IMG/VR virus record: IMGVR_UViG_3300020404_002009
Location: 1 to 64,000 of that record
DNA length: 64,000 bases
Strand: one strand, 5' to 3'
DNA from: a virus
In this document: one piece after another, positions 1 to 29,317 of the stretch
Position numbering within the stretch: position 1 is the first letter of the stretch
How the letters are laid out: the number at the start of each line of letters is the position of its first letter
Translations under genes and position numbers: made by a program
Notes under the pieces: generated by a model
What the model was told of the DNA's origin: nothing
Database searches by the model: none
The model's input: the letters and a program-made list of their open reading frames with translations, nothing else

Positions 1-1
1 C

Positions 2-124
2 AGTCGGGTAATTGTTATAGAGGGTTATAACGGTGGAGAACCGTCGACACCATCCGAAGTGGCACACACGGTCGGCCGGGTATCGAAAAGATTTTTTTCA
101 TCAGGCCGGTCGGCTTATAAATGA
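2..124 (+). CDS. Possible 3' end of a protein entering from the left edge
   Basis: Reading frame 2 is open from the window edge to a TGA at 122-124 and gives about 40 residues with a plausible globular composition. The stop overlaps the ATG at 121 of the next frame as ATGA, an overlap style common in this genome. I do not recognise the product and the upstream part lies outside the window. It could be a chance open frame, so confidence is low. Confidence 0.3.
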   Translation, partial: SRVIVIEGYNGGEPSTPSEVAHTVGRVSKRFFSSGRSAYK

Positions 125-333
125 ACACGCATGGTGGTAAAACTGGTAGGGCAATGATAAAATACCCCCTATATAAAAAAAATGCACAGCGGCCAAAAAG
201 GTCTGCATACCCAGGTTGGCAACAGTGTCGTTTGACTGGCACAAACCAGATATATACTAGTATGCGTTCTAACTTAACATTCTGGGTCATAGTGATAGCA
301 GTCAGCATCTATCTTGGCATATACGTATGGTAG
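121..333 (+). CDS. Small protein with a C-terminal membrane segment
   Basis: This frame encodes 70 residues starting with the ATG that overlaps the preceding stop (ATGA). The first part is basic and polar. The last 20 or so residues form one hydrophobic stretch ending in Tyr-Val-Trp. An internal ATG at 262 would give a 23-residue peptide that is almost entirely membrane segment, and that shorter form resembles the other tiny membrane genes that follow. I do not recognise a family. Which start is used cannot be decided from sequence. Confidence 0.35.
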   Translation: MNTHGGKTGRAMIKYPLYKKNAQRPKRSAYPGWQQCRLTGTNQIYTSMRSNLTFWVIVIAVSIYLGIYVW

Positions 334-341
334 TTGAGATC

Positions 342-398
342 ATGATCATTGCTTACTACGTGATCGCTATCCCCCTGGGCATATGGGCATTGAGATAA
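342..398 (+). CDS. Very short hydrophobic peptide (18 aa)
   Basis: ATG at 342 opens an 18-codon frame encoding a hydrophobic peptide. Its TAA (396-398) overlaps the ATG of the next small frame (398-400) as TAATG. The support is its position in a chain of overlapping small membrane frames. No family can be assigned at this length. Confidence 0.22.
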   Translation: MIIAYYVIAIPLGIWALR

Positions 399-490
399 TG
401 GACATTGTGTGGATCATAACCGGCATATTCCTGAGTGCGATAGCGATAGCACTGTATCTGGGCCACGCAAATGGGACACTGATATGGTAA
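398..490 (+). CDS. Single-pass small membrane protein (30 aa)
   Basis: The ATG overlaps the previous TAA (TAATG). The 30-residue product is one hydrophobic helix followed by a short polar tail. The next gene starts inside its end, at 484, in another frame. Overlaps on both sides argue for a real translated unit in a small-gene operon. The function is unknown. Confidence 0.35.
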   Translation: MDIVWIITGIFLSAIAIALYLGHANGTLIW

Positions 491-630
491 AGACTGTCAT
501 ACTGATCATACTATTCTTTACTGTGCCGGGCGTGATCATGGGCATAGTTTCGAGTTACAGGGCGGGCCAAAAACCCCATGAGGACCTGTACCTGAGATTC
601 AAAAAATTTGCACAGCGGAAAAATAAATAA
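484..630 (+). CDS. Small membrane protein with basic tail (48 aa)
   Basis: This 48-residue protein starts at ATG 484, overlapping the end of the preceding small gene. Residues 3-24 form a hydrophobic helix. The C-terminal half is positively charged and ends in a Lys/Arg-rich stretch, so the tail probably faces the cytoplasm. An in-frame upstream ATG at 409 would add residues that look non-coding. I cannot name it; it resembles the small inner-membrane proteins phages make to alter host membranes. Confidence 0.45.
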   Translation: MVKTVILIILFFTVPGVIMGIVSSYRAGQKPHEDLYLRFKKFAQRKNK

Positions 631-636
631 CTGCAT

Positions 637-909
637 ATGAGATCACTGGGATTACTACTGAGCATTATACTATTGATGTGCCTCACAGTACCCGCACAGT
701 CAGGGCACTCCAGAGACAACGGCACCTGCGATGACGACAAGACCCACTACGAGAACATGACTGTCAACAACAAGCGATCGGACGCACCCCTGTATGCAGA
801 GAGCCAGGCCATGAGGGACAAGGCACACACCTACAACAATTACAAGTTGTGTGAGAAGTACATGGAAGAGGCACTGCGTATGATACGCAAACCCTATCCC
901 ACAGAGTAG
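637..909 (+). CDS. Small secreted protein with signal peptide (90 aa)
   Basis: The first 20 residues form a typical signal peptide: Met-Arg, a leucine/isoleucine-rich core, and a likely cleavage after Pro-Ala-Gln-Ser. The mature part is about 68 polar residues with two Cys that could form a disulfide in the periplasm. It lies 6 bases after the preceding small membrane gene and closes the first small-gene string. No family is recognised. An exported role is well supported by the signal; the function is not. Confidence 0.55.
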   Translation: MRSLGLLLSIILLMCLTVPAQSGHSRDNGTCDDDKTHYENMTVNNKRSDAPLYAESQAMRDKAHTYNNYKLCEKYMEEALRMIRKPYPTE

Positions 910-1031
910 TAGACAGATTATCCAAACTATAATATAATTACAGATGTAACGATTACGTGGCATGTACAGGATCTGTGAAGCGAGAGGGGATCAGGTCCTG
1001 GCGCCATTGTGCATAGCACCTATGCTGAATC

Positions 1032-1066
1032 AACACTAGTGTTTTGACCTGCAACATGCTAAATTA
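1032..1066 (+). promoter_or_regulatory. Palindrome beside a weak promoter-like element
   Basis: The stretch 910-1092 holds no gene that I can see. Inside it, 1032-1043 is a perfect 12-bp palindrome (AACACTAGTGTT). A TTGACC hexamer follows at 1044-1049, but no convincing -10 hexamer is at the right spacing. It may be an operator and promoter for the two small genes that follow. The promoter part is weak. Confidence 0.25.
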
Positions 1067-1092
1067 GTGTAAAACAAAGGAACAATCCAACA

Positions 1093-1272
1093 ATGATACC
1101 ATACACGGAAGAAGAGATGAACTGGGTGACGACCGGCTCATATCGCAAATCGAACACGAACAAACAACGCAAGGTGAAGCAGGAAGATGCCAGGCTGTGG
1201 TCAAGAGCATGGGGCATACGCACAACCATAGAAGTGGACGGCCGAGAATACACAGTGCCGATACAGTTGTAA
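1093..1272 (+). CDS. Small protein of the PYTxEE type (59 aa)
   Basis: The gene has AAAGGAACAATCC before the ATG, a plausible ribosome binding site. It encodes 59 polar residues with many Lys and Arg. The N-terminus MIPYTEEE resembles the N-terminus (MWPYTDEE) of the small reverse-strand protein at 11879-12073, which suggests a phage-specific small-protein family. Its TAA overlaps the ATG of the next gene (TAATG at 1270-1274). The function is unknown. Confidence 0.5.
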   Translation: MIPYTEEEMNWVTTGSYRKSNTNKQRKVKQEDARLWSRAWGIRTTIEVDGREYTVPIQL

Positions 1273-1370
1273 TGTCAGAGAAGAGATACAACACCATCGA
1301 GCGACACGCCGTGGACTGCTGGGTGTTCATAGCGTTCTTCGTGGGCATGGCCATATTCGCACACATCTAG
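1272..1370 (+). CDS. Small membrane protein (32 aa)
   Basis: This frame starts inside the stop of the preceding gene (TAATG). Residues 1-15 are polar and charged, and the rest is one hydrophobic helix. It repeats the pattern seen upstream of overlapped single-helix proteins. I cannot assign a function. Confidence 0.42.
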   Translation: MSEKRYNTIERHAVDCWVFIAFFVGMAIFAHI

Positions 1371-1443
1371 TTCATTATAACACCAGATAACTCCGCAGTG
1401 CCGCGATCAGGGAATAGGCGCAGATAACACGATAAAATACTGC

Positions 1444-2565
1444 ATGGCGGCAATAGATCACGACTCACGCGGCGCGGCGACCACACAGTGGCACGGCCGG
1501 GTGTACACACCCCGAGAACCATTCCACAGAGATCCCAGGGAACAGATGCGTGGGCTCAGGGGCGACTTCGCGGTCATGCACTCGGACGACGAGCACGTAT
1601 GGTTCGCCACAGATTCCTTCAGCACACATCCGCTGTGGTACTACTACGACACGGAGCACATGCACGTGGCATCACGCGGCGACGTTATAAGAGCAGTTAA
1701 TCCAACCGCCTGGCGGGCACGTGCCAATCACACCTATAGGTGGAACAGGCGCACAGGCACGCTCACACACGAACCACGCAGGCCATTTGACCTCGCACAG
1801 CACACCCAGAACTACGACAGGGTGTTCGAGGGCCTGGAGAACGCGGTCAGGGAGAGATTCACGGATGACGCAGTCACGCTGATGGGCAGTGGCTACGACA
1901 CAGGCGTGATCCTAGCGGCGGCCCAGAGTGTTGGCCTCACGGCGAACACAGTGGTGGCAAAGTTTGGCGAACGCAACAGGACGCTGGCGGACCGCATGCG
2001 GATCCATGGTAGCAGGTTCGTCAAGCATGGCACAGTCAATGATCTGGCCGCTGACATTGAGAGGCTCACAGAGATACACTACGGCAGGTTCAACAAGTCC
2101 GAGGAGTCACGTGTGCTCTTGGCTGTGTTCCGCAATCACATGGGAGGTGACGGTCCAACGGCCTTTGTCAGTCCTGTGGGTGGTGACGAGTTCCACGCAG
2201 ATTACGGCTACGATGGCACACCCATAAGAGCAGACAGCAGTTTTGGCGGAAGGTTCCCCAAGGATCTGGGACTGGTATGGCCATGGCATGGCATACTGCA
2301 GGAATGGTTGGACAGGGACAACGCACTCGCCTGTTTCTGTGAAGTGCAGAGACGTTACCCGCTGTTGGATCATGACCTGGTGCAGGCATGGTTGAACACC
2401 ACACACCTGCTGAAGAACAACAGCCACAAGGACTGGATGAAGTGCTACATGAAGGAAAAAGGTTATCCGTTCCAGGAGCCCGACACCAGATATGCGCCAT
2501 GGAGGAGGGACACAGCGGATCGCGGCCGGGAACTGATGCCGCCACAACGCAATTTCCAAGAGTAA
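1444..2565 (+). CDS. AsnB-like protein with degenerate glutaminase and PP-loop motifs
   Basis: The protein has 373 residues, against about 550-630 for asparagine synthetase B. Residues about 38-85 match the end of a class II glutaminase domain (GDFA, then a PLWYYY stretch, then an ASRGD-like motif). The N-terminal catalytic Cys is missing. The synthetase part follows, with GSGYDT at 148-153 where active enzymes have SGGxDS. The Gly-to-Ser and Ser-to-Thr changes make ATP-pyrophosphatase activity uncertain. It probably binds a nucleotide or an amino-acid-like substrate, or modifies a peptide. It lies just upstream of clpP and the PP-loop/Tct cassettes, and is the most GC-rich large gene here. 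Confidence 0.6.
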
Positions 2566-2593
2566 TATAACACTTGACCATTTTGTGTTTTCA

Positions 2594-3214
2594 ATGTATT
2601 ATAACAATATGCCACTTACACCAATAGTGATAGAACAGACATCCAAGGGCGAGAGATCGTATGACATATTCTCTAGACTGCTCAAGGACAGGATAATCAT
2701 GTTGGAAGGTCCAATAGGAGAGAACACCGCTTCGGTTTTGTGTGCTCAACTGTTGTTCCTGGAATCACAGGATGCCCAGAAGGATATAACACTGTATATC
2801 AATTCGCCGGGCGGACTGGTAACGGCAGGCATGGCGATATACGACACCATGCAGTATGTGAGATCGGACATACAAACAATAGTGGTGGGCCAGGCATGTA
2901 GCATGGGCTCACTTCTTGCGTCAGCGGGAACCAAAGGCAAGCGATTGATGTTGCCACACGCACGACACATGATACACCAACCACTGGGCGGAGCAAGTGG
3001 ACAGGCCACAGACGTTGAGATCCGTGCCAATGAACTGCTACGTTGGAAGAAAGAACTGACAGAAATATACGAAAAGACAACAGGACAACCACTGCAGAAG
3101 TTAAAAGACGACATGGAACGAGACAAGTTCATGAACGCCGAAGAGGCAGTTGCGTATGGACTTGTGGACAAGGTGATTACCAACAGAGCAGAAGACGACG
3201 ACCAAGACAACTAG
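2594..3214 (+). CDS. clpP: ATP-dependent Clp protease proteolytic subunit ClpP
   Basis: The product matches ClpP over its full length of about 200 residues. The catalytic Ser lies in GQACSMG, the catalytic His in MIHQPLGG and the catalytic Asp in the MERDKFM stretch, and the YINSPGG motif is intact. The peptidase therefore looks active. It would form a tetradecamer and work with a host Clp ATPase or a phage adaptor. Starts at 2585 (GTG), 2594 or 2609 (both ATG) are possible. The family's usual N-terminus (PxVxEQTSxGER) begins right after the ATG at 2609. TTGACC (2575-2580), 17 bp, TATTAT (2598-2603) would make a transcript beginning near 2609. There is no Shine-Dalgarno at any of them. Confidence 0.9.
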
Positions 3215-3243
3215 ACTGGTAAAAAACGCACTGTAAATATCCA

Positions 3244-4485
3244 GTGACCTTCGAAAACCTCAACAAGAATCTCAGAAACAGACACACCAGCATAGTAGCG
3301 GACGGCAAACGTTTTCACAGTGACATAGAGGCACTGATGCACCTGTCAAAGAAGTTAGGACCACTGTCTGAATTAGAGAATCGAATACCTCGTTACGACA
3401 ACACACAGTCAAAAACTTTGGGAGAGTATCACAAAGGCCTGGGAGAATATCTTTCCAAGAAAGGTGTTTTGCAATTTGACATACATGGCAAGTTCATGGA
3501 TACAGATTGGACCACAGAGCCAGAACACGATGTGTCTGTCTATATAGACAGGATGTGCGAGGCCATAGAGCAGAACTATGATGAGATCATGATAAGTTAC
3601 TCGGGAGGCACAGACAGCAACACAATTACGGACGCCTTCCTCAGGAGGGGCACCAGGAACGTGAAGTTAGTGAACTTTGTCAACACATCTCTACAGATAC
3701 ACGTGGAGGCACGTAAGTGGTTAGCAAAGCACACCAACGATGCCCTCAAATACAAATATGAAAATGCCATACGGAATCTCAATTGGTCTGTGCAGATTTT
3801 CGAAGCATGGCAACCGTATTCGGCAAAGCAATACGAGGACAGCATCGCCAACAGAGAGTTCATGGCATGGAACAACGATTACAACAACTTGCATTCCTGG
3901 GCACAGAACAGCGGCGAGATCATAGCCACGAGGAACACAGGCAGGCGCACTTGCTGGATAGTGGGATATGAAAAACCACATCTAACAATTGACAATGGAT
4001 GGTACTGCTTCAGGATGAGTCACGACATCATGGACACTCCTCTGTCACCGGTTGATCCCAATGCAGAACTGATATATTTCTGGATGAATGACCTGGAACC
4101 CAACTTGATTAAAAAACTTGCACACTGCAAGGCAAAAGAAATACGCAAAATATTTGCAGAGAACAACACATCACCAAATAAGGAAAACGTTGAGATGATG
4201 AATCGTTCTCACTCTGCACACTACCACAGGCTCAACAAAGCAATGGGCATGTCCGCTCTGACAGACTTCCTTGCTACAAACGAGACCAAAGATGGCTACT
4301 GGAAACAGCAAGACCTCGAACAGCAATCTCGTGTGTTGCACAAGGAAACTGAGATTAAAAAGACATTAAGAGACAAGTATTTTGATGAAGTAATCAAGAA
4401 AGAAATCAATGCCAATCTCTTGGCCATGGAACTGCGTAGGCCCATAAGCATTGTTTCCAAAATAAAGAAAGTCATTGCCGCATGA
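3244..4485 (+). CDS. N-type ATP-pyrophosphatase (PP-loop) protein, first Tct cassette
   Basis: The 413-residue protein carries the PP-loop signature SGGTDS at residues 120-125. This motif binds the ATP pyrophosphate in asparagine synthetase, NAD synthetase, GMP synthetase and tRNA thiolation enzymes, which adenylate a carbonyl group and then aminate or thiolate it. There is no glutaminase domain and I cannot name a subfamily. The GTG start follows a TAAATA box (3234-3239) by 4 bases with no Shine-Dalgarno. The stop overlaps the start of tctA by 4 bases, so the two are translationally coupled. Its partner at 7371 sits in the same position before the second TctA. Confidence 0.7.
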   Translation: MTFENLNKNLRNRHTSIVADGKRFHSDIEALMHLSKKLGPLSELENRIPRYDNTQSKTLGEYHKGLGEYLSKKGVLQFDIHGKFMDTDWTTEPEHDVSVYIDRMCEAIEQNYDEIMISYSGGTDSNTITDAFLRRGTRNVKLVNFVNTSLQIHVEARKWLAKHTNDALKYKYENAIRNLNWSVQIFEAWQPYSAKQYEDSIANREFMAWNNDYNNLHSWAQNSGEIIATRNTGRRTCWIVGYEKPHLTIDNGWYCFRMSHDIMDTPLSPVDPNAELIYFWMNDLEPNLIKKLAHCKAKEIRKIFAENNTSPNKENVEMMNRSHSAHYHRLNKAMGMSALTDFLATNETKDGYWKQQDLEQQSRVLHKETEIKKTLRDKYFDEVIKKEINANLLAMELRRPISIVSKIKKVIAA

Positions 4486-5813
4486 TAGAAACAGCGATTG
4501 TATTCATATGTGGAATAGTAAGCGGACTCCTGGCCGGTGTTCTTCCGGGCATAGGCGGTGTGGTTGTAATGACATTGGCTTTCCCTTTCCTGATACAGAT
4601 AGATCCTGTGAACATATTAATTTTCTACGTCACGATGGCCAGCATAGATCAATACTTTAATGGCATCACAGCAATAGTGTTTGGTGTGCCCGGGGCAAGT
4701 ATGAACATACCAACACAAATAGAAGGACACACATTGTTCAGACAGGGCAAAGGCAACGATGCAATTATGTTCAGTGCTGTGGGCAGTTGGATATCCAGCA
4801 TGTTCGCAATCGTTTTAGTGGTCATGCTGTTGCCAGTGCTATGGGGAGTGTACGGTGTGTGGACGTCCTTGATGCAAGGAGTGTTGTTAGGCATAGCCTC
4901 GTTGGTTCTTGTGTACGTTAGTAGAAATAAAATTTTACTGAGCACTTTGTTGTTTGTGTTTGGTGGGTTGCTTGGGCAAGTGGGGTACAGTGAAGAGACA
5001 GGTAGGTCAGTGATGACCCTAGGTTTTGATCTATTGCATTCTGGAATACCAACACTTGCAGTTTTGGTCAGCCTGTTTGTTGTTCCTGTGTTGCTCAAGA
5101 GTTACCGTAAGCAACCTGGTAGTTTTAGTTTTCCAGGTGTGTCCTTTGACGGATACAAGAAAGTGTTTGGCAAAATGAGGAACTACACGTCAACGTTGAT
5201 CAGGAGTTCGTTCCTAGGTTCGGTTGGCGGATTGATGCCGGGCATGAGTTTTGGATTTAGTAGTTTGTTGGCCTATATAACAGAAAAGTCATTGCGTAAG
5301 AAACAAAAATTATACAAGCAAGGAGACTTTCCTAGTCTTATTGCAAGTGAAAGCGCCAACAACGCAGGTGTGTTCACGCAATTGGTACCATTGCTTTTCT
5401 TGGGCATTCCCATTACTGCCAGCGAAGCACTGATATACAACATACTCGAGATGAGGGGATTGCCTGTTGACATAGAATGGTTTAAGGGCACCTTTATGCA
5501 AGTATTGGTATTTTTCTTTGTGAGCTCAATAATAGGCTTGATACTTGCCGCAAAATATGTTAATCTACTGAAAGTGTTCAACGGCATACCGATTGAAAGA
5601 ATTTATATCTCTGTGGTTGTGTTGTTGGCAGTTGCCCTGTGGCAAACAGGAGTCACGCAGTACGCAGGATTTAATCATCTGTTGATTGCTGTAATGATGT
5701 TGCCACTTGGAGTGTTATTACAAAAACACGATACCACTCCTCTGTTATTTGGCTTTCTGTTGAGTGAGCCATTGATAGACAACTTACAACGAGTGTTTGT
5801 GATATATTTTTAG
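4482..5813 (+). CDS. tctA: TctA-family permease, large subunit of a tripartite tricarboxylate transporter (first copy)
   Basis: This 443-residue, very hydrophobic protein has the TctA hallmarks: GVLPGIGG at residues 19-26, the GVPGASMN segment followed by EGHTLFRQGKG, and about ten or more membrane helices. TctA is the large inner-membrane subunit that imports citrate or similar carboxylates delivered by the periplasmic TctC protein. It is somewhat shorter than the usual 500 residues. It overlaps the upstream PP-loop gene by 4 bases and is followed after 1 base by a TctC gene. No TctB-like four-helix protein is nearby. The substrate cannot be told from sequence. Confidence 0.88.
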   Translation: MIETAIVFICGIVSGLLAGVLPGIGGVVVMTLAFPFLIQIDPVNILIFYVTMASIDQYFNGITAIVFGVPGASMNIPTQIEGHTLFRQGKGNDAIMFSAVGSWISSMFAIVLVVMLLPVLWGVYGVWTSLMQGVLLGIASLVLVYVSRNKILLSTLLFVFGGLLGQVGYSEETGRSVMTLGFDLLHSGIPTLAVLVSLFVVPVLLKSYRKQPGSFSFPGVSFDGYKKVFGKMRNYTSTLIRSSFLGSVGGLMPGMSFGFSSLLAYITEKSLRKKQKLYKQGDFPSLIASESANNAGVFTQLVPLLFLGIPITASEALIYNILEMRGLPVDIEWFKGTFMQVLVFFFVSSIIGLILAAKYVNLLKVFNGIPIERIYISVVVLLAVALWQTGVTQYAGFNHLLIAVMMLPLGVLLQKHDTTPLLFGFLLSEPLIDNLQRVFVIYF

Positions 5814-5814
5814 T

Positions 5815-6594
5815 ATGAAAAAACTTTTACTACTTGTAGCATTTTTGTTTTGCACCAACGCAGTTGCAGAAAAGATAGATGTGATAAAACACTCAAAGCC
5901 AGGTGGACTCATTGACAGGATGAACGAAGTCATAGCACAGTCACTAGGCGATAATTTTGGAGAGTTCATAAAGGTTGAAAACTGTGTGCAGGCAATAAAG
6001 GTGATAGAAAAATCAAAGACTAAAGTGCTAACTGCATGGCCAACAGAAAGAGAAGCCGAGAATAGTCCTTGTAATTTGGATAACAAATTTATTCTATCTA
6101 CGTTTAGTAATAGTCCCTATCACATAACCTACTTTGAATCAAACACCCAAGCCGCGGACTTGAACTATCTAAAGAGCGGGGAAGAAGTTATAGTTGGTGT
6201 TTGGGATAGCAATTTTTGGGCACCACCACAGACAAAATTTTTACAGGCCATTAATCCAAACATCAAAGTTGTGAGATACAAAAGCAAACCATTTAGGACA
6301 GCACTCGCAAGTGGTGAGATAGATTACAAGATAGTTTCCTTCCCGGGCAACGATCCAGTGTTGGCCATAATGAACGGAGAGACACTATTACCGGAACACG
6401 AGTTTTCAAACATGGGATATTCGATGATGTTTGCAGGTAACTTTGATTACAATGTTCGATATGTGTACGAAAGCAAAGCATGGGAGCAACGCAAAGATGT
6501 CACGCACATGCCATGGTTGCAAGGACAGTACAAAGATTACAAAATAAAATATGTGGAGCAAATGTTATCCGCTTTAACAAAAACAAAAGAGTAA
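5815..6594 (+). CDS. tctC: TctC-like periplasmic solute-binding protein (first copy)
   Basis: The 259-residue product begins with a clear signal peptide (MKKLLLLVAFLF, cleavage after AVA near residue 18). Early in the mature protein is a KPGGLIDR segment that corresponds to the PGG-x-x-D loop of the TctC/Bug family, which holds a carboxylate in family members. It is short for the family (about 320) and divergent, so it may have a narrow or new ligand. It starts 1 base after the stop of tctA and is certainly co-transcribed with it. The assignment rests on the motif, the export signal and the context. Confidence 0.72.
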   Translation: MKKLLLLVAFLFCTNAVAEKIDVIKHSKPGGLIDRMNEVIAQSLGDNFGEFIKVENCVQAIKVIEKSKTKVLTAWPTEREAENSPCNLDNKFILSTFSNSPYHITYFESNTQAADLNYLKSGEEVIVGVWDSNFWAPPQTKFLQAINPNIKVVRYKSKPFRTALASGEIDYKIVSFPGNDPVLAIMNGETLLPEHEFSNMGYSMMFAGNFDYNVRYVYESKAWEQRKDVTHMPWLQGQYKDYKIKYVEQMLSALTKTKE

Positions 6595-6648
6595 AAATAT
6601 GGACGTAATAAATATCATTAGGTACTGGCATACTGTAAGGAATATAAT

Positions 6649-7368
6649 ATGTACAAGACCGATCTAGACAAACAACTTCTCAAACACAACATATCCCCAT
6701 GGGGAGAAAGCCAGCAGAATTCTTGGCGACTATATAATCTCAACAAGGCCAAGCCTGGATACCATAAGCACGGCAACGTTTGGAAACACTTTGCCAAGCA
6801 CGGAGTCACAAAAGAAAGACTCACTGATTGGGATATACCAAAAGTTGTTGGAATCAGTAGCACACTAGGACTGCAGGATCAACTTCCAGAATCAAGACCC
6901 ACATTGAATCACATCCGCGAACTAAACATTTACAGCGATCATGCACCGCATGACATAACAGTCACAAACGATCTTATTGTTAAGCAGACACAGGACTACA
7001 CGCTCAACAAAGATGTCTACAACTCATTGCAAGACTTCTTGGAACCTTTGGGTTGGGAGAAAGCAAGGTACTCACGTTTCCAGCAGTATCCAAATGAGAT
7101 GACAAGGGTGCATGTTGATATACACAGACAAATGAGCAACATGCATAACTCTCCAACAGATCCTATACTGTGTGGCGAGGTAAGGATAGGAGTAGTGTTT
7201 CTAAATGACTGGGCCTATGGACAAGGATTTGGAATGGGCAAAGACATTGTGCAGAATTGGAAGATGGGAGACTTCTATGAATGGCCGTGGTTCTTTCCAC
7301 ATCACACATTTAATAATTCAAACGTACTTCGTAACTCACTGACTATCATAGCACGTAAAAGATCGTAG
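6649..7368 (+). CDS. 2-oxoglutarate/Fe(II)-dependent oxygenase-like protein
   Basis: The 239-residue protein has a His-x-Asp metal motif (HVDIH). About 70 residues further on it has a distal His in PHHTF, then an Arg in the VLRNSLTI strand. This order (HxD, then His, then Arg) is that of 2OG-Fe(II) hydroxylases, where the Arg binds 2-oxoglutarate. The substrate is unknown. It has a Shine-Dalgarno-like TAAGGA before the ATG and lies 2 bases before the second PP-loop gene. The link to a carboxylate transporter is suggestive because the enzyme would consume 2-oxoglutarate. Confidence 0.6.
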   Translation: MYKTDLDKQLLKHNISPWGESQQNSWRLYNLNKAKPGYHKHGNVWKHFAKHGVTKERLTDWDIPKVVGISSTLGLQDQLPESRPTLNHIRELNIYSDHAPHDITVTNDLIVKQTQDYTLNKDVYNSLQDFLEPLGWEKARYSRFQQYPNEMTRVHVDIHRQMSNMHNSPTDPILCGEVRIGVVFLNDWAYGQGFGMGKDIVQNWKMGDFYEWPWFFPHHTFNNSNVLRNSLTIIARKRS

Positions 7369-7370
7369 TA

Positions 7371-8489
7371 ATGCAAATATTTGATTCTACATACACAGAG
7401 GACATGTATCCTTATAGGAATGAATGGCCAGAGGGAGTGTTTGATCACCGCACAAAGAAAAAATATCCAACAACACTAACTGCTCTCTTGGATTGTCAGC
7501 ACTTTGACGATCTAGAACTATACACAGGGTTCCAGGTAAAACAACCTGTACCGGACAAGTCTTTGGAAGAACTTTACAAAGATCGTATGAGAGCCTTACG
7601 TAACAAATATGATTATCTAGAATTGAGTTGGGGTGGCGGACATGACAGCACAATGATACTGAAAGTATCAGAGCAAACAGGTTGCCCACTTGATGTAATT
7701 TCAATGCAGTGCTTTGGAGATCCACGTGAAGATGATTCCAGATTTAATTCGGAAATATCAAAAAATTTGCATCATGTGTTATCGTATGTTGAAATGTTTC
7801 CACAGACTAAAATTGTGTTCCTTGACATCAATGAAACATATAAGGCAACGGTGGAGCACTATCTTGATAATAAGATGTGGTGTAGGATGACAACAATGGG
7901 TATGCTTGATGACATCTGCAGGATCAGTGCAGATAGATTTATTCCACAACGTAATAATAAAAACGGTGCTGTGCTGACAGGCCAAGGATGGAAACCTGTG
8001 CTGTACAACAAACACTACGGCACTTGGTCATTGTACCAACAGCAGGACATGGTAAACCAATTGGGCAGTATAAGTTTTCTTGTGCCAACAATTAGGTTCT
8101 ACGAAACCGCAGAAATTATGATCAAGGTCGGGGATGACATTAGGAAAAAATATAAAACCAGCGATCAAGATTATCTAGACAGAGCAGATGTTTCGCAAAA
8201 TGCAAATGTATGGATTGGTAATAATGAATGGATACACGAAGAAATCATGTACACAGAATTAAAAGGTGAAATTTTCCATGATGGTAAAGATCCTAAATTC
8301 CATATACCATGGCAAGATGAACCGAGGTTCGAATGGTTTTGCAAGAACCAAAATGCCAAAACCATGTACAAAGAATATTTTGAGTGGGTTGAATTCCTTG
8401 ACAAGAACATACATCCAAGTTGTATGCTCGAGGGTGGGATACTCAAAGGCGGACTCAAGAATGTCAAACCAATGATGATTGACTTCTAA
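7371..8489 (+). CDS. N-type ATP-pyrophosphatase (PP-loop) protein, second Tct cassette
   Basis: This 372-residue protein carries GGGHDS at residues 88-93, a variant of the SGGxDS ATP-pyrophosphatase loop with Gly for the first Ser. The stretch before it is a beta strand (YLELSW), as in the family. It has no glutaminase domain. It differs greatly in sequence from the 3244 gene but sits in the same place before a TctA gene. The start is 2 bases after the oxygenase stop. The likely chemistry is adenylation of a carboxylate or amide, which is inferred from the family. Confidence 0.65.
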   Translation: MQIFDSTYTEDMYPYRNEWPEGVFDHRTKKKYPTTLTALLDCQHFDDLELYTGFQVKQPVPDKSLEELYKDRMRALRNKYDYLELSWGGGHDSTMILKVSEQTGCPLDVISMQCFGDPREDDSRFNSEISKNLHHVLSYVEMFPQTKIVFLDINETYKATVEHYLDNKMWCRMTTMGMLDDICRISADRFIPQRNNKNGAVLTGQGWKPVLYNKHYGTWSLYQQQDMVNQLGSISFLVPTIRFYETAEIMIKVGDDIRKKYKTSDQDYLDRADVSQNANVWIGNNEWIHEEIMYTELKGEIFHDGKDPKFHIPWQDEPRFEWFCKNQNAKTMYKEYFEWVEFLDKNIHPSCMLEGGILKGGLKNVKPMMIDF

Positions 8490-8512
8490 CGAAGTGTATT
8501 TTATAATTTAGA

Positions 8513-9922
8513 GTGGAACTAATTTTACTAAACTTATCGGTAATGCTATCTGGGATATTCCTAGGATTGATTGCTGGCGTACTGCCGGGAATTGGTAATG
8601 TTGTTACTTTGATTTTGGTTTATCCTTTCATAACAGATTTTGATCTCTTTCAGATAGTTTTGTTCTATATGTGCCTGGCAGGCTCGTCGCAGTACACAGG
8701 CAGTGTTGTGGCCACAACCTTGGCAGTGCCAGGAGAGACTTCTAGTCTGCCGGCGGTCACAGAAGGCCATAGAATGTTTTTGTCTGGCAGAGGCAACTAT
8801 GCAATCAGTAACAGTGCAATGGGAAGTTTTCTTGGTGCGGGTATAGCCTCACTGATAATGATGATATTTCTTCCGGTAGGGGTATATGCTATCTCTAAAT
8901 TTTACAATACCCATGTGCAGTCTGTAATTCTAATAGGAGTTGCAATATTTTTAGTTGCCACATACGCAGGACAAAAATGGTATCACAACCTTATGCTGTT
9001 TGCAATAGGATGGTTCTTGAGTTCTATAGGATTCTCTAAAGAACTTATGCAGTACAACTGGGACTTTTTAATCGACTACCAAAAATTTTATTACCTACAT
9101 TTTGGATTACCTCTTTATCCTGTGGTGGTTGCATTGTTTGTGTTTCCGATATTCCTCAAAGAGTGGAACTCTCCCAGACCAGATGCAAGTGCATTGGATA
9201 AACTTTGGGACAACAAATTTATACAACACGCCAGAGAGTTTTTAAAAAACATAGGATCTAGTATCAGAGGCACGGTCATTGGAAGTCTTTGTGGACTAGT
9301 TCCACACATGACCTCTACACTTGCCAGCAACGTTGCCTACATAAGAGAAAGGAATCGTGGAAAGAAGAACGGCACATATGACGAGAATGGTGATATCAAA
9401 AGTCTAGTAAGTGCGGAGACGGCCAATAATGCCGCGGGATTGACACAACTTACTCCTCTGTTGCTAATAGGAATTCCTATCACGACAAGTGAAGCCATTG
9501 TGTTGAACATAATTGAAAACAACATGCAAATTATAAATTGGGAAACAACTGTGTCTTCTGGTATGTTTGGTACACTTGTAATCTATTTTGTAGTAATGAA
9601 TGCATTATGTTTGTTGGCGGCCTGGCCCTTTGCCAAGCATCTGCACGTATTGTTTAGGATAAATCAGAAAACCCTATACACATTTACTTTCTTGCTTTTG
9701 ATGTGTCTGGTATTCTACATGGGCACTATTGTAAATCAACAGATGTACTATGTCGTGGTCACATTGGCCTTACTGCCAATTGGATATCTGTTGCGAAGAT
9801 GGGATACCTTGATATTAATATTTGCCTTTGTGTTGCAGGGACAGATACAAGGTGCTGTGATAAGATTGGCCCATATCTATAGCGACTGGCTACCATACAT
9901 ATCAAATCTAGGACGTTGGTAA
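8513..9922 (+). CDS. tctA: TctA-family permease (second copy)
   Basis: This 469-residue membrane protein shares the TctA motifs with the first copy: GVLPGIGN at residues 22-29, AVPGETSSLP followed by EGHRMF, and a SAETANNAAGLTQLTPLLLIGIPIT-type repeat in the second half. The two copies differ widely, so this is not a recent duplication. The GTG start has no Shine-Dalgarno. Unlike the first cassette, its TctC partner follows only after a 263-base gap containing a separate promoter. It would be the permease of a TTT system in the host inner membrane. Confidence 0.88.
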   Translation: MELILLNLSVMLSGIFLGLIAGVLPGIGNVVTLILVYPFITDFDLFQIVLFYMCLAGSSQYTGSVVATTLAVPGETSSLPAVTEGHRMFLSGRGNYAISNSAMGSFLGAGIASLIMMIFLPVGVYAISKFYNTHVQSVILIGVAIFLVATYAGQKWYHNLMLFAIGWFLSSIGFSKELMQYNWDFLIDYQKFYYLHFGLPLYPVVVALFVFPIFLKEWNSPRPDASALDKLWDNKFIQHAREFLKNIGSSIRGTVIGSLCGLVPHMTSTLASNVAYIRERNRGKKNGTYDENGDIKSLVSAETANNAAGLTQLTPLLLIGIPITTSEAIVLNIIENNMQIINWETTVSSGMFGTLVIYFVVMNALCLLAAWPFAKHLHVLFRINQKTLYTFTFLLLMCLVFYMGTIVNQQMYYVVVTLALLPIGYLLRRWDTLILIFAFVLQGQIQGAVIRLAHIYSDWLPYISNLGRW

Positions 9923-9984
9923 TTTGATTGGATAAGTACTGATGTAACGCCGAACATCATTCGACGTCGGGTTTAATGACGCTT

Positions 9985-10017
9985 GAGAGATTTACATATG
10001 CCAGTATCCAATCTCTC
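9985..10017 (+). terminator. Hairpin after second tctA (possible terminator)
   Basis: GAGAGATT at 9985-9992 pairs perfectly with AATCTCTC at 10010-10017, leaving a 17-base loop, followed by TTT. It lies about 60 bases after the tctA stop, in the 263-base gap before tctC. The short T-run makes it a weak intrinsic terminator. It may instead be part of a structured leader RNA. Confidence 0.4.
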
Positions 10018-10067
10018 TTTACTCGCTTGAGAACGCCTTCCCGTATGCCTCCAGGCTAACTTTCACA

Positions 10068-10129
10068 AACACACGATTGCAGGATGAAGAACATAACTCC
10101 TATTTTCTATTTCCATGTGATCGTGTGTT
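10068..10129 (+). repeat. 10-bp inverted repeat whose right arm overlaps the tctC -35 box
   Basis: AACACACGAT at 10068-10077 is the exact reverse complement of ATCGTGTGTT at 10120-10129. The arms are 42 bases apart. The right arm shares its last two bases with the TTGACA box of the promoter at 10128. Either a dimeric repressor bound at both arms or a cruciform could control this promoter. No second copy was seen in the window. Confidence 0.45.
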
Positions 10130-10156
10130 GACAAAACTTTAATAAAAATGTAAAAT
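10128..10156 (+). promoter_or_regulatory. Strong sigma-70-type promoter for tctC
   Basis: TTGACA at 10128-10133 is the consensus -35. After exactly 17 bases comes TAAAAT at 10151-10156, one mismatch from the -10 consensus. The expected start near 10163 gives a leader of about 23 bases containing AAAGGA before the ATG at 10186. It lets tctC be expressed separately from, and more strongly than, the permease gene. Confidence 0.75.
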
Positions 10157-10185
10157 TAGTAAAGTTAACTTAAAGGAAAATAAAA

Positions 10186-11058
10186 ATGAAGAAGACAATA
10201 ATAGCGTTTTTGGTCTCGCTTATGACTTTTGGTATAGCGAACGCAAAAACTATCGATTACCTGGTTACAGGTACCCCGGGTGGAACTGCGTATGATAACG
10301 CAGAATTGTTTGTTCCAATTCTTGAAAAAGAAACAGGCTTCAAGTTCAACAAGGTAATAGTTGACAGTGCCGTTGGAGCAACAATATACCTTAAGAAAAG
10401 CAAAAACCCAAGCGTATGGATTCAGAACACACTGGATCATGAGTCTGTGGGAAACGAGTTGCAGGCGACTCCTGAATCATGGATTGGTACAGGATGGGGC
10501 AGAGCAATGGCTTTCTGTTCTAACGAAGCACTAGACGAAGCAGTTGCAAGGCTCAAAGCCGGCAAAAGACTTACGTTTGCTGTTTCAAACTCTTATGGTC
10601 AGCACTTGATCGACCCATTGGTTGATGTCACAGGCACACCAATGAAGTTTGTACCATATGGTTCGTCGGGCAAAAGCCTTAAAGGTTTTGTTGCAGGCGA
10701 CACAGATATGTTGTTCACTAACATGCCAAAAGCAGTGAGTGGCGTAACGAAGAACGGTATCAGTTGTTGGGCAAACACAGGACCAACAAAGATACTTGAT
10801 ATGGAACCAATGGCAACACTGTTTCCTGAATACAAGTACAATGACATTCAAACGTTCACATACTTGGATTCTGCGAACATGAGTGAGTCAGACGTCGCGA
10901 CATTGAGGGCGGCATGGCAAAACGTGTTGAAGAACGAAGCAGTTGCAGGACACATCAAGAACAAGAAACTATTCCATCCATCTGTATACGGTGACCTTAC
11001 ACCAACAGAGTGGGCCGCGAAATTAGATAAAGCGGGTAAGAACTGGGTAGGCAAATAA
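10186..11058 (+). CDS. tctC: TctC-family periplasmic solute-binding protein (second copy)
   Basis: The 290-residue protein has a signal peptide (cleavage after ANA near residue 20) and then the TctC/Bug hallmark TGTPGGTAYDNA, whose PGG-x-x-D loop contacts the carboxylate ligand. The central VPYGSSGKSLKGFVAGDTDM segment matches the family's second ligand-binding loop. It is closer to standard TctC than the copy at 5815. It has its own consensus promoter, a good Shine-Dalgarno and a strong palindrome after it. It should therefore be made in excess over TctA, as is usual for binding proteins. Confidence 0.85.
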   Translation: MKKTIIAFLVSLMTFGIANAKTIDYLVTGTPGGTAYDNAELFVPILEKETGFKFNKVIVDSAVGATIYLKKSKNPSVWIQNTLDHESVGNELQATPESWIGTGWGRAMAFCSNEALDEAVARLKAGKRLTFAVSNSYGQHLIDPLVDVTGTPMKFVPYGSSGKSLKGFVAGDTDMLFTNMPKAVSGVTKNGISCWANTGPTKILDMEPMATLFPEYKYNDIQTFTYLDSANMSESDVATLRAAWQNVLKNEAVAGHIKNKKLFHPSVYGDLTPTEWAAKLDKAGKNWVGK

Positions 11059-11067
11059 TCTAATCAT

Positions 11068-11091
11068 ATAGGTGGCCCTAGGGCCACCTAT
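11068..11091 (+). terminator. 24-bp perfect palindrome after tctC
   Basis: ATAGGTGGCCCT is followed directly by its reverse complement AGGGCCACCTAT. In RNA this gives a stable GC-rich stem with a minimal loop. It starts 9 bases after the tctC stop and ends 11 bases before the SDR start codon. There is no T-run, so it is more likely an mRNA 3'-end stabiliser, processing site or partial terminator than a full intrinsic terminator. Confidence 0.55.
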
Positions 11092-11102
11092 TGAGGAACA
11101 AC

Positions 11103-11882
11103 ATGACAGTATTGATATGCGGAGCAAATGGATCGATAGGAAGTTTCGTAGCACAGGCAGAAGCAAAAGATCATAAAGTGGTGGGCACATACAGAAAGTA
11201 TGATGAACACGCAAAAGAATTAGATAAAAATCCAAACATCACACTAGTGCGTAAGAACATGTTCGAGGGTACAGACATGAAGGACGTGGTGGACAAAGCC
11301 AGGGAGCAAGGTCCTATAACCAAAGTGTACTGGTTGGTAGGTGAGAGTTGGAACATCGGTTGGGACAAATTAAAATTACAAGACATTCAAAATGCAGTTA
11401 GGATGTGTTCGGAACCTTTGGCAAGCCTAATAATTGAATGCAAACCAGAGTTGTCAGATGAAAATAATTTAATGCGGTGGGCAAGTATCTCAGGAATAAG
11501 CAGTCTGATATATGCAGGTGGACCTAACAAGCCTGCCACAGGTGGAGCCAAGCACATGGCAGAATTTTATTTTAGATCTGCTAGTGCGTTTTGGACTTGG
11601 AAGCAAAACCTTTTTAACAACGTAATACTTGGCAACAGCAGAAGGACAAAGAATTTACACGTTGGATATCATGGTGATGCTCTCAAACAAATCTATAAGA
11701 ACGATATTCCATTGGGCACAGGAACCCAATCAGAAAACGTTGCCAATGTGTTGTTATGGTTGAACAGCGATGTAAACAAATTCATGACAGGCCAAGATAT
11801 CGTATTTGATGGTGCAGAAACAATCCGCACAAGGGATAATGTCAAAGACACACCCATGAAGGATCATCCAAAATATTATTAA
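11103..11882 (+). CDS. SDR-like Rossmann-fold protein, catalytic Tyr not evident
   Basis: The 259-residue product begins with a beta strand and GANGSIG, the TGxxGxG-type nucleotide loop of short-chain dehydrogenases. A Ser-rich ASISGIS segment fits the catalytic Ser region. In the expected YxxxK position, TGGAK has the Lys but no Tyr four residues before it. It may bind NAD(P) without being a normal dehydrogenase. I chose the ATG at 11103, which has GAGGAA upstream. Its TAA overlaps the stop of the convergent small gene. It follows the second TctC and may belong to that cassette. Confidence 0.65.
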   Translation: MTVLICGANGSIGSFVAQAEAKDHKVVGTYRKYDEHAKELDKNPNITLVRKNMFEGTDMKDVVDKAREQGPITKVYWLVGESWNIGWDKLKLQDIQNAVRMCSEPLASLIIECKPELSDENNLMRWASISGISSLIYAGGPNKPATGGAKHMAEFYFRSASAFWTWKQNLFNNVILGNSRRTKNLHVGYHGDALKQIYKNDIPLGTGTQSENVANVLLWLNSDVNKFMTGQDIVFDGAETIRTRDNVKDTPMKDHPKYY

Positions 11883-14044: not shown

Positions 14045-14120
14045 GCCGCTTTAGCTCAGTTGGTAGAGCAACTGATTTGTAATCAGTAGGTCCGCGGTTC
14101 GAATCCGTGAAGCGGCACCA
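14045..14120 (+). tRNA. tRNA-Thr (anticodon TGT)
   Basis: A full cloverleaf is visible. The acceptor GCCGCTT pairs with AAGCGGC, TAGCTCAGTTGGTAGAGCA forms the D arm, CTGATTTGTAATCAG the anticodon arm with TGT, and GGTTCGAATCC the T arm. CCA is encoded. Confidence 0.95.
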
Positions 14121-14202
14121 TGTAAACCAATTATGCCTGAATTACCATTATCACCAAAAAAGTCAATGGCCTTGCATGTGATTGGTGTATTTGGACAATT
14201 AA

Positions 14203-14277
14203 GGTCCCTTCGTCTATCGGTTAGGACACGTGGTTTTCATCCTCGAAAGAGGGGTTCGACTCCCCTAGGGACCGCCA
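14203..14277 (+). tRNA. tRNA-Glu (anticodon TTC)
   Basis: The acceptor GGTCCCT pairs with AGGGACC. The anticodon loop TTTTCAT gives TTC and the T arm is GGGGTTCGACTCCCC. CCA is encoded. The anticodon stem has one apparent T-T mismatch in the middle. Confidence 0.9.
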
Positions 14278-14283
14278 CACAAT

Positions 14284-14360
14284 CTCCGGGTAGTTCAGTT
14301 GGATAGAATACGAGTTTCCTAAACTTGGGGTCGGGGGTTCGAATCCCTCCCCGGAGGCCA
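14284..14360 (+). tRNA. tRNA-Arg (anticodon CCT)
   Basis: The acceptor CTCCGGG pairs with CCCGGAG. The anticodon stem CGAGT/ACTTG encloses TTCCTAA, giving anticodon CCT for the rare Arg codon AGG. CCA is encoded. Confidence 0.9.
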
Positions 14361-14365
14361 ATAAT

Positions 14366-14442
14366 GGACCGGTAGCTCAGTTGGATAGAGCGTGAGTTTG
14401 CGGAACTCAAGGCCATAGGTTCGAATCCTGTCCGGTCCACCA
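14366..14442 (+). tRNA. tRNA-Arg (anticodon GCG)
   Basis: The acceptor GGACCGG pairs with CCGGTCC. The anticodon stem TGAGT/ACTCA encloses TTGCGGA, giving anticodon GCG, which reads CGC and CGT. CCA is encoded. Most bacteria use tRNA-Arg(ACG), edited to inosine, for this box, so a GCG anticodon is unusual. Confidence 0.85.
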
Positions 14443-14462: not shown

Positions 14463-14765
14463 GTGCAAAGATTTTATTCAGTCAAGTTAAAAGAAAGAAA
14501 TGAACAAATACCACCGTTCGTGGCAAAACATCTTTTGAAAAAAGAATCTCCCTTAATAAATTACCTTGCGGAGAACAAGGCACTCAAATTTGTGCATCGA
14601 AAAAAAACTGATACCCTTGACTGCTACGGAGAAGAGAAACATCTAATGGTTGGCAAACTAAAGTATCCAGACCTATGGGGTCGCAAGACCAGGATGGGAT
14701 TTATGGAACTATACATCAACATGCGTATACAACAGCAGATGAGTCTATCCAGAGGTAGCTCATGA
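14463..14765 (+). CDS. Hypothetical protein (100 aa)
   Basis: The frame opens with a GTG at 14463, shortly after the tRNA cluster, and its stop overlaps the ATG of the next gene. The product is basic with no membrane segment. I do not recognise it. The overlap with an SGNH-type gene and a plausible composition support a real gene. Confidence 0.5.
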   Translation: MQRFYSVKLKERNEQIPPFVAKHLLKKESPLINYLAENKALKFVHRKKTDTLDCYGEEKHLMVGKLKYPDLWGRKTRMGFMELYINMRIQQQMSLSRGSS

Positions 14766-15451
14766 GATATGGACATTACTCAGACAATGAACTAAAAACT
14801 TTTGCCGACTGGCCCTTCAGGTGCCCAAGTTGGAATCCTATGCCGGATGGCAAGAAGAATGTGGTTGTTTTGGGTTGTAGCCACACCTGGGGTGTTGGAC
14901 TGGAGGAGAACGAAACATGGGTGCATCTAATCAGTAAGCACAACAATAAACGTCTGCGATTCTGGAACCTAGGACAACCTGGTGCCAGTCCCGAAGCGTG
15001 TGTTCGCATATTGTACGCCTCCGAAAAGGTTATCAATCCAAAAATAATAATTGTGTGTTGGCCTGAGATTAGCAGGCGCGAAAGGCTTGAAACAAACGCA
15101 CCTCGCAACCTTACAGGATCTGATGAAAGACTGCGTCACGAGGACAACGAGACTGATATCAATAATTTTCTTAAATCGGTATTTTTTCTTGAAAAGTTTG
15201 CAGAGAAAAACGGTTGCAAGACATTTCATTGTTTTGCCCATGACACTGTTGATTTAAAAAAACATAATCCAGAACTTAATATTATCCAGGACTATTCATT
15301 GAGAAACTGTTGGCCACACTGGGATAAATTCACAGCGAGAGAACTTCATACAGAACCTTCGCGAGCAAGGGATGGTATACATTTTGGTGTTGACAATCAC
15401 AGGCGTTTTGCAAATATAATTATAGAACGTCTTGGTCAGAAGTTAAAGTAA
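14762..15451 (+). CDS. SGNH-hydrolase-like protein
   Basis: The 229-residue protein has GCSHTWG near residue 39, corresponding to block I (GDS) of SGNH hydrolases, with Ser as the likely nucleophile. It then has GQPGAS (block II Gly) and, near the end, RDGIHFG, where the Asp and His complete the triad. Members of this fold remove or transfer acyl groups on sugars, lipids or peptidoglycan. It overlaps the upstream small gene as ATGA, and its 3' end overlaps the convergent radical SAM gene. A related protein is at 44820. Confidence 0.65.
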   Translation: MRYGHYSDNELKTFADWPFRCPSWNPMPDGKKNVVVLGCSHTWGVGLEENETWVHLISKHNNKRLRFWNLGQPGASPEACVRILYASEKVINPKIIIVCWPEISRRERLETNAPRNLTGSDERLRHEDNETDINNFLKSVFFLEKFAEKNGCKTFHCFAHDTVDLKKHNPELNIIQDYSLRNCWPHWDKFTARELHTEPSRARDGIHFGVDNHRRFANIIIERLGQKLK

Positions 15452-16455
15452 TCATTTATATCTATCTTACGTAACCAATCCTGCTTTTTAATAAACAGAT
15501 TCAATTGCTCATCGTTTTCCTTGCCCACAGCGATTACTTTTGCAATGTCCTTACACACCTTATAAGAAGAGTTTCCTAGTTTTTCTTTTGCGGATAAGGT
15601 GAATCGATTTTTGTGTGTGGGATCATAGACTTCCGGATCATTTAGGAATGCCCACGAATGTTCTAGATTGTGTTCAGTCACAAAGTCGAGTATCCTTGGT
15701 AAGTTCCCCACATTGATACTGCTTACAGTGGTCCAGGTGTTTAGTCTTAAAAGCGGAAATCTTTTTTGCAACTCTTTGTATGCTATTACGCTTTTGCTAA
15801 ACTGTTTCCATTTGATAGGCCACCTTACATAATCGTGGACATCTTCGACGCCGTCAAGACTCAAAGTCACTATCACCATGATTCTTTTGCTTAAGATTGT
15901 TTCAAGTTCGGGAATCATACGCGAACCGTTCGTGTTCATTCTCACTATCCTAACGTTTTTTGGCAGGCGTCCCAATATTTTTTTATAGTTCTTGCTGGCA
16001 GTTGGCTCTCCTCCATTTACATCGATCTCTAAAATTCTGTTTAGTGGCAACTCCCAAAATTTTACATAGTTGTCAACACGTGGATAATCTTTGGATCCCA
16101 GGCTTCCGATTTTAGTACTTAGACCTGAATTGCATGTTTGACAAGCACTGTTGCATACATTGTCAAGTACACCGCCAACAACAAGGTAGTCGTCCCTAAA
16201 AGGTTGTAGCACCTTGTGCCTTTGAATACTTTTGAGACGTATACTTTCCTGATTTATTTCTTCGGACTGTTTACATCTTACGCATTCGTCTGGCCACTGA
16301 TCGTTTTCCATTTTGTTTTTGATATCTCTCAACCATTTGCTTTTGTCAAGTTGTTCAACTGATTCGAATCCCATTTTAGTATCCATGTGGCCGCACTTTC
16401 CCACAGTGCCGTTTCGATTCAATCTTACAAAGTGTTTTAATCTAGGACAATACAT
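15436..16455 (-). CDS. Radical SAM enzyme (first of four)
   Basis: The 339-residue protein contains CNSACQTC, the CxxxCxxC motif that binds the catalytic 4Fe-4S cluster and S-adenosylmethionine. It is followed by the NGGEPT segment. A Cys-containing N-terminal stretch (CVRCKQSEE) fits an accessory twitch or SPASM-like cluster placed before the core. The substrate is unknown; such proteins often modify peptides or sugars. Its start overlaps the end of the sulfotransferase-like gene upstream, forming a reverse-strand set with that gene, the next radical SAM gene and an SDR. Confidence 0.8.
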   Translation of the reverse strand: MYCPRLKHFVRLNRNGTVGKCGHMDTKMGFESVEQLDKSKWLRDIKNKMENDQWPDECVRCKQSEEINQESIRLKSIQRHKVLQPFRDDYLVVGGVLDNVCNSACQTCNSGLSTKIGSLGSKDYPRVDNYVKFWELPLNRILEIDVNGGEPTASKNYKKILGRLPKNVRIVRMNTNGSRMIPELETILSKRIMVIVTLSLDGVEDVHDYVRWPIKWKQFSKSVIAYKELQKRFPLLRLNTWTTVSSINVGNLPRILDFVTEHNLEHSWAFLNDPEVYDPTHKNRFTLSAKEKLGNSSYKVCKDIAKVIAVGKENDEQLNLFIKKQDWLRKIDINDYFNF

Positions 16456-16951
16456 TTTTAACCTTATTTAAAACTTCTTTGATGTTGTAAGTGCTGTTGC
16501 ACATTGATAACAATACGTTATCCTCCTTGCCATAATCCTTTAAGGTTCTCACAGGTTTTTTGTTTGGTGTTTCGTTCTTGCGGCTGTGTGGTATAGCACT
16601 CATGGGTAACAACTGTATGTCACCGTCATAGAATTTACTGAGATGCATTATCCAAAAATATTGAGGTAGCCAATGCTTGTCTACTAGTTTGTCATTTTCG
16701 ATTTGCCTTACAATGTCATCATTTTCGATATTGTTCAGTTGTGAATATTTGTTGATGCCCCCACGCCAACGGAGCAATGGATCTCTTATGAAAACATTAA
16801 TTTTTTCACACTGTTTAATTTCGTCATTATACAGGCTTTGTTCTTTAACCTTTTGAAAGCCGTTCCATCCACACTTGAATATCGGGTATATCCATTGTCC
16901 TTTGTACAGAATGACCTCGCAACTGTCGGTAAAAATTTTAGTCAAGTTCAT
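16442..16951 (-). CDS. Sulfotransferase-like protein
   Basis: The 169-residue product (start chosen at the MNLTKIF methionine; a longer frame reaches 16987) has PIFKCGWNGF, which resembles the 5'-phosphosulfate loop. It also has FIRDPLLRWRGG, which resembles the RDPxxRxxSG 3'-phosphate motif of PAPS sulfotransferases. The usual Ser in the second motif is Gly. It is sandwiched between two radical SAM genes with short overlaps. If active it would move a sulfate onto a sugar, lipid or peptide. The family assignment is from motif resemblance only. Confidence 0.45.
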   Translation of the reverse strand: MNLTKIFTDSCEVILYKGQWIYPIFKCGWNGFQKVKEQSLYNDEIKQCEKINVFIRDPLLRWRGGINKYSQLNNIENDDIVRQIENDKLVDKHWLPQYFWIMHLSKFYDGDIQLLPMSAIPHSRKNETPNKKPVRTLKDYGKEDNVLLSMCNSTYNIKEVLNKVKNVLS

Positions 16952-18616: not shown

Positions 18617-18625
18617 ACGCACTGG

Positions 18626-18635
18626 TATTTAAATA
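18626..18635. promoter_or_regulatory. Palindromic TATTTAAATA between divergent genes
   Basis: This element reads TTAAATA in both directions and lies 6 bases before the forward ATG and 9 before the reverse ATG. Neither gene has a Shine-Dalgarno. It matches the box seen before many genes here and could act as a two-way late-type promoter. Confidence 0.45.
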
Positions 18636-18641
18636 GGTGCA

Positions 18642-29285: not shown

Positions 29286-29291
29286 AATACA

Positions 29292-29309
29292 TATTTAACA
29301 GTATTTATA
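29292..29309 (-). promoter_or_regulatory. T4-late-type promoter boxes
   Basis: On the reverse strand TATAAATA (29302-29309) is the exact T4 late -10 octamer, and a TTAAATA copy (29292-29298) lies 6 bases before the ATG at 29285. The gene has no Shine-Dalgarno. The first box would give a normal short leader and the second an almost leaderless mRNA. Confidence 0.6.
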
Positions 29310-29317
29310 GATAGAGC

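Follow-up and report, generated by a model that had tools for sequence, protein, structure and literature searches.

The window analysed here is a 64,000-nucleotide stretch (positions 1 to 64,000) of the linear, 66,148-base virus record IMGVR_UViG_3300020404_002009 in IMG/VR. It carries two cassettes in which genes for a PP-loop ATPase-like protein (PP), the large permease (TctA) and the substrate-binding protein (TctC) of a tripartite tricarboxylate transporter (TTT) follow each other. A structured RNA of ~120 nt (110–130 nt across copies) lies between tctA2 and tctC2 of the second cassette. Both the gene partnership and the RNA recur in divergent viral lineages. On balance, we favour the view that they form a phage uptake-and-tailoring module, which would be expressed late under the control of a cis-regulatory RNA, perhaps a riboswitch.

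All genes and elements of the two cassettes are on the + strand. Cassette 1 (3244–6594) is composed of PP1 (3244–4485; PP-loop SGGTDS), TctA1 (4482–5813) and TctC1 (5815–6594), a diverged binding protein with a signal peptide; PP1 and TctA1 overlap by 4 bases, and TctA1 and TctC1 are separated by 1 base. A gene for a 2-oxoglutarate (2OG)/Fe(II) oxygenase-like protein (OG, 6649–7368) links it to cassette 2 (7371–11058), which comprises PP2 (7371–8489; GGGHDS), TctA2 (8513–9922) and TctC2 (10186–11058, with a signal peptide). A gene for a short-chain dehydrogenase/reductase (SDR)-family protein (11091–11882; Pfam adh_short_C2, 4.8e-12) comes after. The open reading frames agree exactly with an earlier note made from the sequence, which had described the twofold order, the linking oxygenase, the SDR gene and the tight junctions of cassette 1. 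Its claim that the two TctAs are divergent and not a recent copy was likewise borne out. TctA1 and TctA2 share 33% identity and fall into separate viral subclades, and PP1 and PP2 are alignable only around the PP-loop; the idea that one cassette was recently duplicated to give both is therefore rejected.

Distant viral contigs were found with the TctA pattern TQLxPLLxxGIPIT and later with RNA patterns; several peptide-pattern searches with single proteins returned close kin only. The order of the genes varies among these contigs: OG-TctC-TctA-PP in L075, L091 and L092, OG-PP-TctA-TctC in L071, PP...OG-TctA-TctC in L074, TctC-TctA-PP in L166, PP-TctC-TctA in L126, TctA-TctC-PP-OG-DegT in L128, TctA-TctC-PP-OG-OG in L154, TctA-TctC-asnB-PP in L160, TctA and then TctC-DegT-OG-SDR-PP in L161, and TctA-TctC-PP in L162. 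A PP-loop gene is present in the cassette of nearly all viral TctAs, usually together with a 2OG oxygenase, whose association is no less constant than that of the PP-loop gene itself. In one lineage (L152, L153 and L158), the position of the TTT after the RNA is taken by an NMT1-like binding protein, an ABC ATPase and a permease; the operon includes a PP gene, and OG is present in L153 and L158. L125 carries a DctP-type binding protein alongside TctC. Since an ABC importer can replace TctA with OG and PP staying in place, the transporter varies and its PP-loop and oxygenase partners persist, and the exchange of importer types points to import as the common function. The earlier note's proposal that phages keep a TTT-type transporter lacking TctB linked to a PP-loop protein is upheld by this recurrence in many divergent lineages with shuffled order.

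The viral TctAs are set apart from their cellular counterparts. In a tree with cellular TctAs, 18 viral TctAs lie on one side of a branch with support of 100/100; the support was weaker (87/77) in an earlier tree. The word clade is used here for this one side of a branch in an unrooted tree, in which some viral branches are long. Among 337 alphaproteobacterial and 321 gammaproteobacterial-class genomes, the closest cellular TctAs are 23–29% identical to TctA2. No related PP or OG genes were found near TctA at any of 58 cellular loci with short flanks, and when 20 of these loci were taken with ~6 kb flanks, the 16 that were readable around TctA again lacked both families. A search of 240 alphaproteobacterial genomes with the PP family gave two marginal matches only. 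In isolate phages, the matches to TctA were distant only, some of them in records of 2–6 kb or of bacterial size, and the window OG had no match. One viral TctA (L090, positions 28516–29835 of the 97-kb contig G664) groups with cellular TctAs and has its own adjoining TctC and OG genes; the same contig also holds the viral-type cassette of L091.

The gap between tctA2 and tctC2, 264 nt long and conserved in relatives, contains the structured RNA (9943–10066), which the earlier note had overlooked and which is a candidate cis-regulatory leader. It scored 90.7 bits by cmsearch with a model that includes the window copy. Its elements are, in order, AACGCC, hairpin P2, GACGTCGG, GACGC, hairpin P3, TTTAC, hairpin P4, GAACGCC, CCGTA and hairpin P5; a long-range stem, P1, pairs CGG(A/G) with (T/C)CCG and is changed on both sides in L092, to GGATA/TATCC. 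In a plain MAFFT alignment of 16 copies, both-side changes were observed in 13 of the 18 pairs, and 91% of cells were paired versus 74% in shuffles (0 of 500 as high) and 30–49% when the structure was slid; the structure had been drawn by us from the first alignment, a choice that favours it in this test. A second alignment of 28 distinct rows, made to the model and hence leaning towards the structure, gave compensatory changes in 16/18 pairs and 93% of cells paired versus 71% in shuffles and 39–48% in slid controls. The RNA thus has the conserved structure with covariation that is expected of a riboswitch. It matched no Rfam family, which rules out a known one. No copy was found in isolate phages. 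The class to which G005 belongs also gave none in 321 genomes, in a search run without a positive control.

Within the collection, copies of the RNA precede the OG3 operon of both L075 and L091 as well as tctC3 of L092, and a motif scan added others next to genes for PP, TctA, TctC, OG and radical-SAM proteins. Of the 25 distinct copies of full length, 21 accompany PP/TctA/TctC/OG or ABC cassettes and 4 accompany radical-SAM operons. A weak, altered copy (22.7 bits) precedes the PP gene of L074. A pattern match in L127 was dismissed as chance, as it lies within GC-rich coding sequence and reaches 12.8 bits only. Each viral record has one copy, or two in the case of G672 and G678, where one RNA is at a TctA cassette and the other at a radical-SAM operon; a single copy is present even in a 349-kb contig. 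With one or two copies per record, the RNA does not behave as a leader common to late transcripts.

A TAARTA sequence, the form of T4-type late promoters, ends 3–8 nt upstream of the RNA in all 25 full-length copies checked (background, 1.1%), so that the RNA would begin at a late start site. In the window, this late-promoter-like box is TAAGTA (9933–9938), 4 nt upstream of the RNA. The RNA sits between the late box and the genes, and in many cassettes it is placed at the head or between genes. A sigma70-like promoter often follows it, in the window as TTGACA-N17-TAAAAT (10128–10156) between the RNA and tctC2, and similarly in L004, L005, L071, L092 and others.

The assignment of the transporter proteins is clear for the permeases, as both TctA1 and TctA2 match Pfam TctA strongly (2.4e-62 and 2.9e-65) and contain the first-transmembrane-segment motif G-x3-G-x3-G-x2-PGxG taken from a published account of the family (PMC5812351). 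When searched singly, TctC1, TctC2, PP1, PP2 and OG had no convincing Pfam match. Sibling TctCs reach Pfam TctC (2.4e-36), and the TctC family profile retrieves PDB entries of TTT binding proteins with E ~2e-5. In a structure search, the best folds for the TctC1 model were led by TTT binding proteins, such as those for terephthalate and oxoadipate, and the five best PDB matches of TctC2 are TTT binding proteins. Family profile and fold support TctC1 and TctC2 as TTT-type binding proteins.

A TTT system normally consists of TctA, TctB and TctC, of which TctB shows little conservation and is not present in archaea (PMC5812351). As the earlier note had stated, TctB is absent: no PF07331 match (E<=10) was detected in the 66-kb record, itself probably a fragment of a larger phage genome, or in 12 other viral records. 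A divergent TctB hidden in the cassette is also rejected, because no small open reading frame with multiple transmembrane segments was found inside the cassettes examined. The viral cassette resembles the TTT (TC 2.A.80, TctCBA) in having adjacent genes for a TctA-family permease and a secreted TctC-type binding protein, but it differs in lacking TctB, in its PP-loop and 2OG-oxygenase partners and leader RNA, and in a separate viral TctA clade, most members of which carry ANNAxxxTQLxPLLxxGIPITxSEA.

The PP-loop proteins keep the motif (S/G)GGxD(S/C) in 21 of 21 family members. PP1, recognised by the family profile, shows weak LarE and QueC-like matches and 36% identity to the PP adjoining the viral TctA in L074. 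For PP2, all top-ranked folds in Foldseek are PP-loop enzymes, and the confident core of the AlphaFold model (moderate confidence overall, mean pLDDT 66) matches NAD synthetase, beta-lactam and carbapenam synthetase, LarE and GMP synthetase with low TM-scores. The viral proteins therefore share the fold and the motif of PP-loop ATP pyrophosphatases but differ from them in that no Pfam or NCBIfam family reaches its cut-off and in the variant first motif residue of PP2. Because this fold is common to amidating, thiolating and other enzymes, the amidation or thiolation that the earlier note would couple to organic-acid uptake is possible as one of several options compatible with the modelled fold.

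Across 11 aligned OG relatives, H155, D157 and H218 of HxD...H are invariant, and R228 is present in all but one. The iron triad and 2OG-binding arginine mark OG, by its residues, as a putative Fe(II)/2OG oxygenase. Such enzymes are common in marine T4-like phages and share the HxD...H...R motif with OG, but OG is tied to transporter/PP cassettes.

The four closest relatives (contigs L003–L006) carry TctA2 at 85–89% identity and the SDR protein at ~90%, and retain OG-PP2-TctA2-TctC2-SDR without cassette 1. In the clpP-OG slot, where the window has cassette 1, L004 (1665–2267) and L006 have an FTR1-family iron permease gene, and L005 (3239–4231) has an amidinotransferase-like gene with a weak Pfam arginine deiminase match. 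Cassette 2 is thus core in this group, and cassette 1 is an insertion into a variable slot. Between the window and close relatives, nonsynonymous change (pN) is low for TctA2, TctC2 and SDR (0.05–0.11) and higher for OG and PP2, and synonymous sites are near saturation for most of these genes, indicating that all five are under purifying selection.

From family membership, we infer the following route. A small organic molecule would be bound by TctC in the periplasm and carried into the cell by TctA, without TctB. Once it is in the cytoplasm, ATP-dependent activation of a substrate is the probable task of the PP-loop protein, and hydroxylation of a substrate that of the Fe(II)/2OG oxygenase, with DegT aminotransferases or SDR proteins presumably taking part in some lineages. 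For the RNA, cis regulation of the late transcript is the most likely role, and it may act as a riboswitch that responds to the compound being imported or modified. With less assurance, we consider that a new riboswitch class could mark a regulon in jumbo and related T4-superfamily phages, in which interchangeable importers (TTT, ABC, perhaps TRAP) would work alongside enzymes of the PP-loop, 2OG-oxygenase and radical-SAM kinds and allow the phage to sense, import and modify a specific metabolite late in infection.

Several observations weigh against the proposed riboswitch-controlled module. Cassette 1 has no RNA copy, and the sigma70-like promoter 3' of the RNA could yield transcripts without it. 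The first PP-loop position is G and not S in PP2 and some siblings, and OG (pN 0.21) and PP2 (0.31) diverge faster than TctA2 and TctC2. The RNA also stands upstream of radical-SAM genes in L120, L121, L129 and L159 (a B12-binding radical SAM in L159). The copies in L155 and L157 are shortened: P2 and the late box are missing, a CTACTAT/ATAGTAG stem encloses the remaining core, and the gene after it is virion-like; L155 is on a 316-kb contig. These placements before radical-SAM operons and a virion-like gene, the fixed position after the TAARTA box and the lack of an obvious terminator or other expression platform would suit an RNA that senses no metabolite, being instead a late-transcript leader or a small RNA with a role in message stability or as the target of a phage protein, with the cassette as late metabolic cargo. 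We judge this rather unlikely, though it is the strongest competitor, given that a phage record has one copy or at most two, with a single one in 349 kb, that the RNA is strongly biased to transport/PP/OG cassettes, and that its highly conserved unpaired AACGCC, GACGC and GAACGCC resemble a folded pocket.

A role at the cell surface, in which surface glycans are modified by the PP-loop, OG, DegT and SDR proteins and either the binding protein or the permease blocks superinfection or exports a precursor, appears improbable. The importer is swapped for other importer families (ABC/NMT1-like, and DctP in L125) and not for glycan export genes, and no glycosyltransferase occurs in the cassettes inspected, against which stand the DegT aminotransferase and SDR genes of some cassettes and, elsewhere in the window phage, GDP-mannose-dehydratase-like and glycosyltransferase-like genes recognised by inspection. 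That PP-loop genes are mere chance neighbours of TctA in a cargo-rich region is hardly credible: the variable slot of cassette 1 and the two contigs with TctA-TctC and no PP gene in the stretch examined (L072, L078) would fit, but the association recurs far beyond chance across most viral TctA lineages in differing gene orders and is absent near the 58 cellular TctA loci. The earlier note had named rarity of this pairing as what would overturn its proposal, and the opposite was found.

The window phage is related to jumbo phages. Its terminase shows 55% identity, and its DnaB helicase ~50–55%, to PA5oct-group jumbo phages, followed by Phosso and Atu_ph07. As the nearest isolate genomes are ~285–490 kb, the 66-kb record is probably a piece of a jumbo-type genome of ~280 kb or more, and the absence of TctB applies to the record and not to the whole phage. 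Positions 1–4000, which span an asnB-like gene, clpP and part of PP1, have a GC content of ~50% versus 34–47% elsewhere in the window and are possibly a recent acquisition. The asparagine-synthase-like protein encoded there (1444–2565) has the PP-loop GSGYDTG and is probably degenerate. Four tRNA genes (Thr, Glu, Arg, Arg) are located at 14045–14442, and three radical-SAM genes are clustered with an SDR gene at 15436–20118; related genes are directly 3' of the TctA3 cassette in L075. A small secreted beta-barrel-like protein is encoded at 20456–20827; L005 has a 312-aa porin-like relative (14511–15449) without a Pfam match, and a true Gram-negative porin gene (L165, 11649–12530) adjoins the RNA cassette in the 349-kb contig.

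The putative auxiliary metabolic genes reported for SUP05 viral contigs include a viral tctA, given as a domain hit of unknown role, and a 2OG-Fe(II) oxygenase (PMC4164917; repeated in PMC6359870). That passage has these two genes in common with our cassettes but does not mention a cassette, a PP-loop partner or an RNA. A literature search of incomplete coverage turned up no account of a phage cassette that pairs PP-loop and TctA genes, or of the RNA. Like the bacterial and phage riboswitches in Rfam, the viral RNA is structured, covaries and lies beside transport and metabolic genes, but it matches none of their families; it may represent a new class of phage cis-regulatory RNA, which can be tested in vitro. 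If it has a ligand, that ligand would probably show which compound is handled by the module. If the proposed module is real, large phages would bring their own uptake-and-processing pathway into the host, beyond boosting the pathways of the host.

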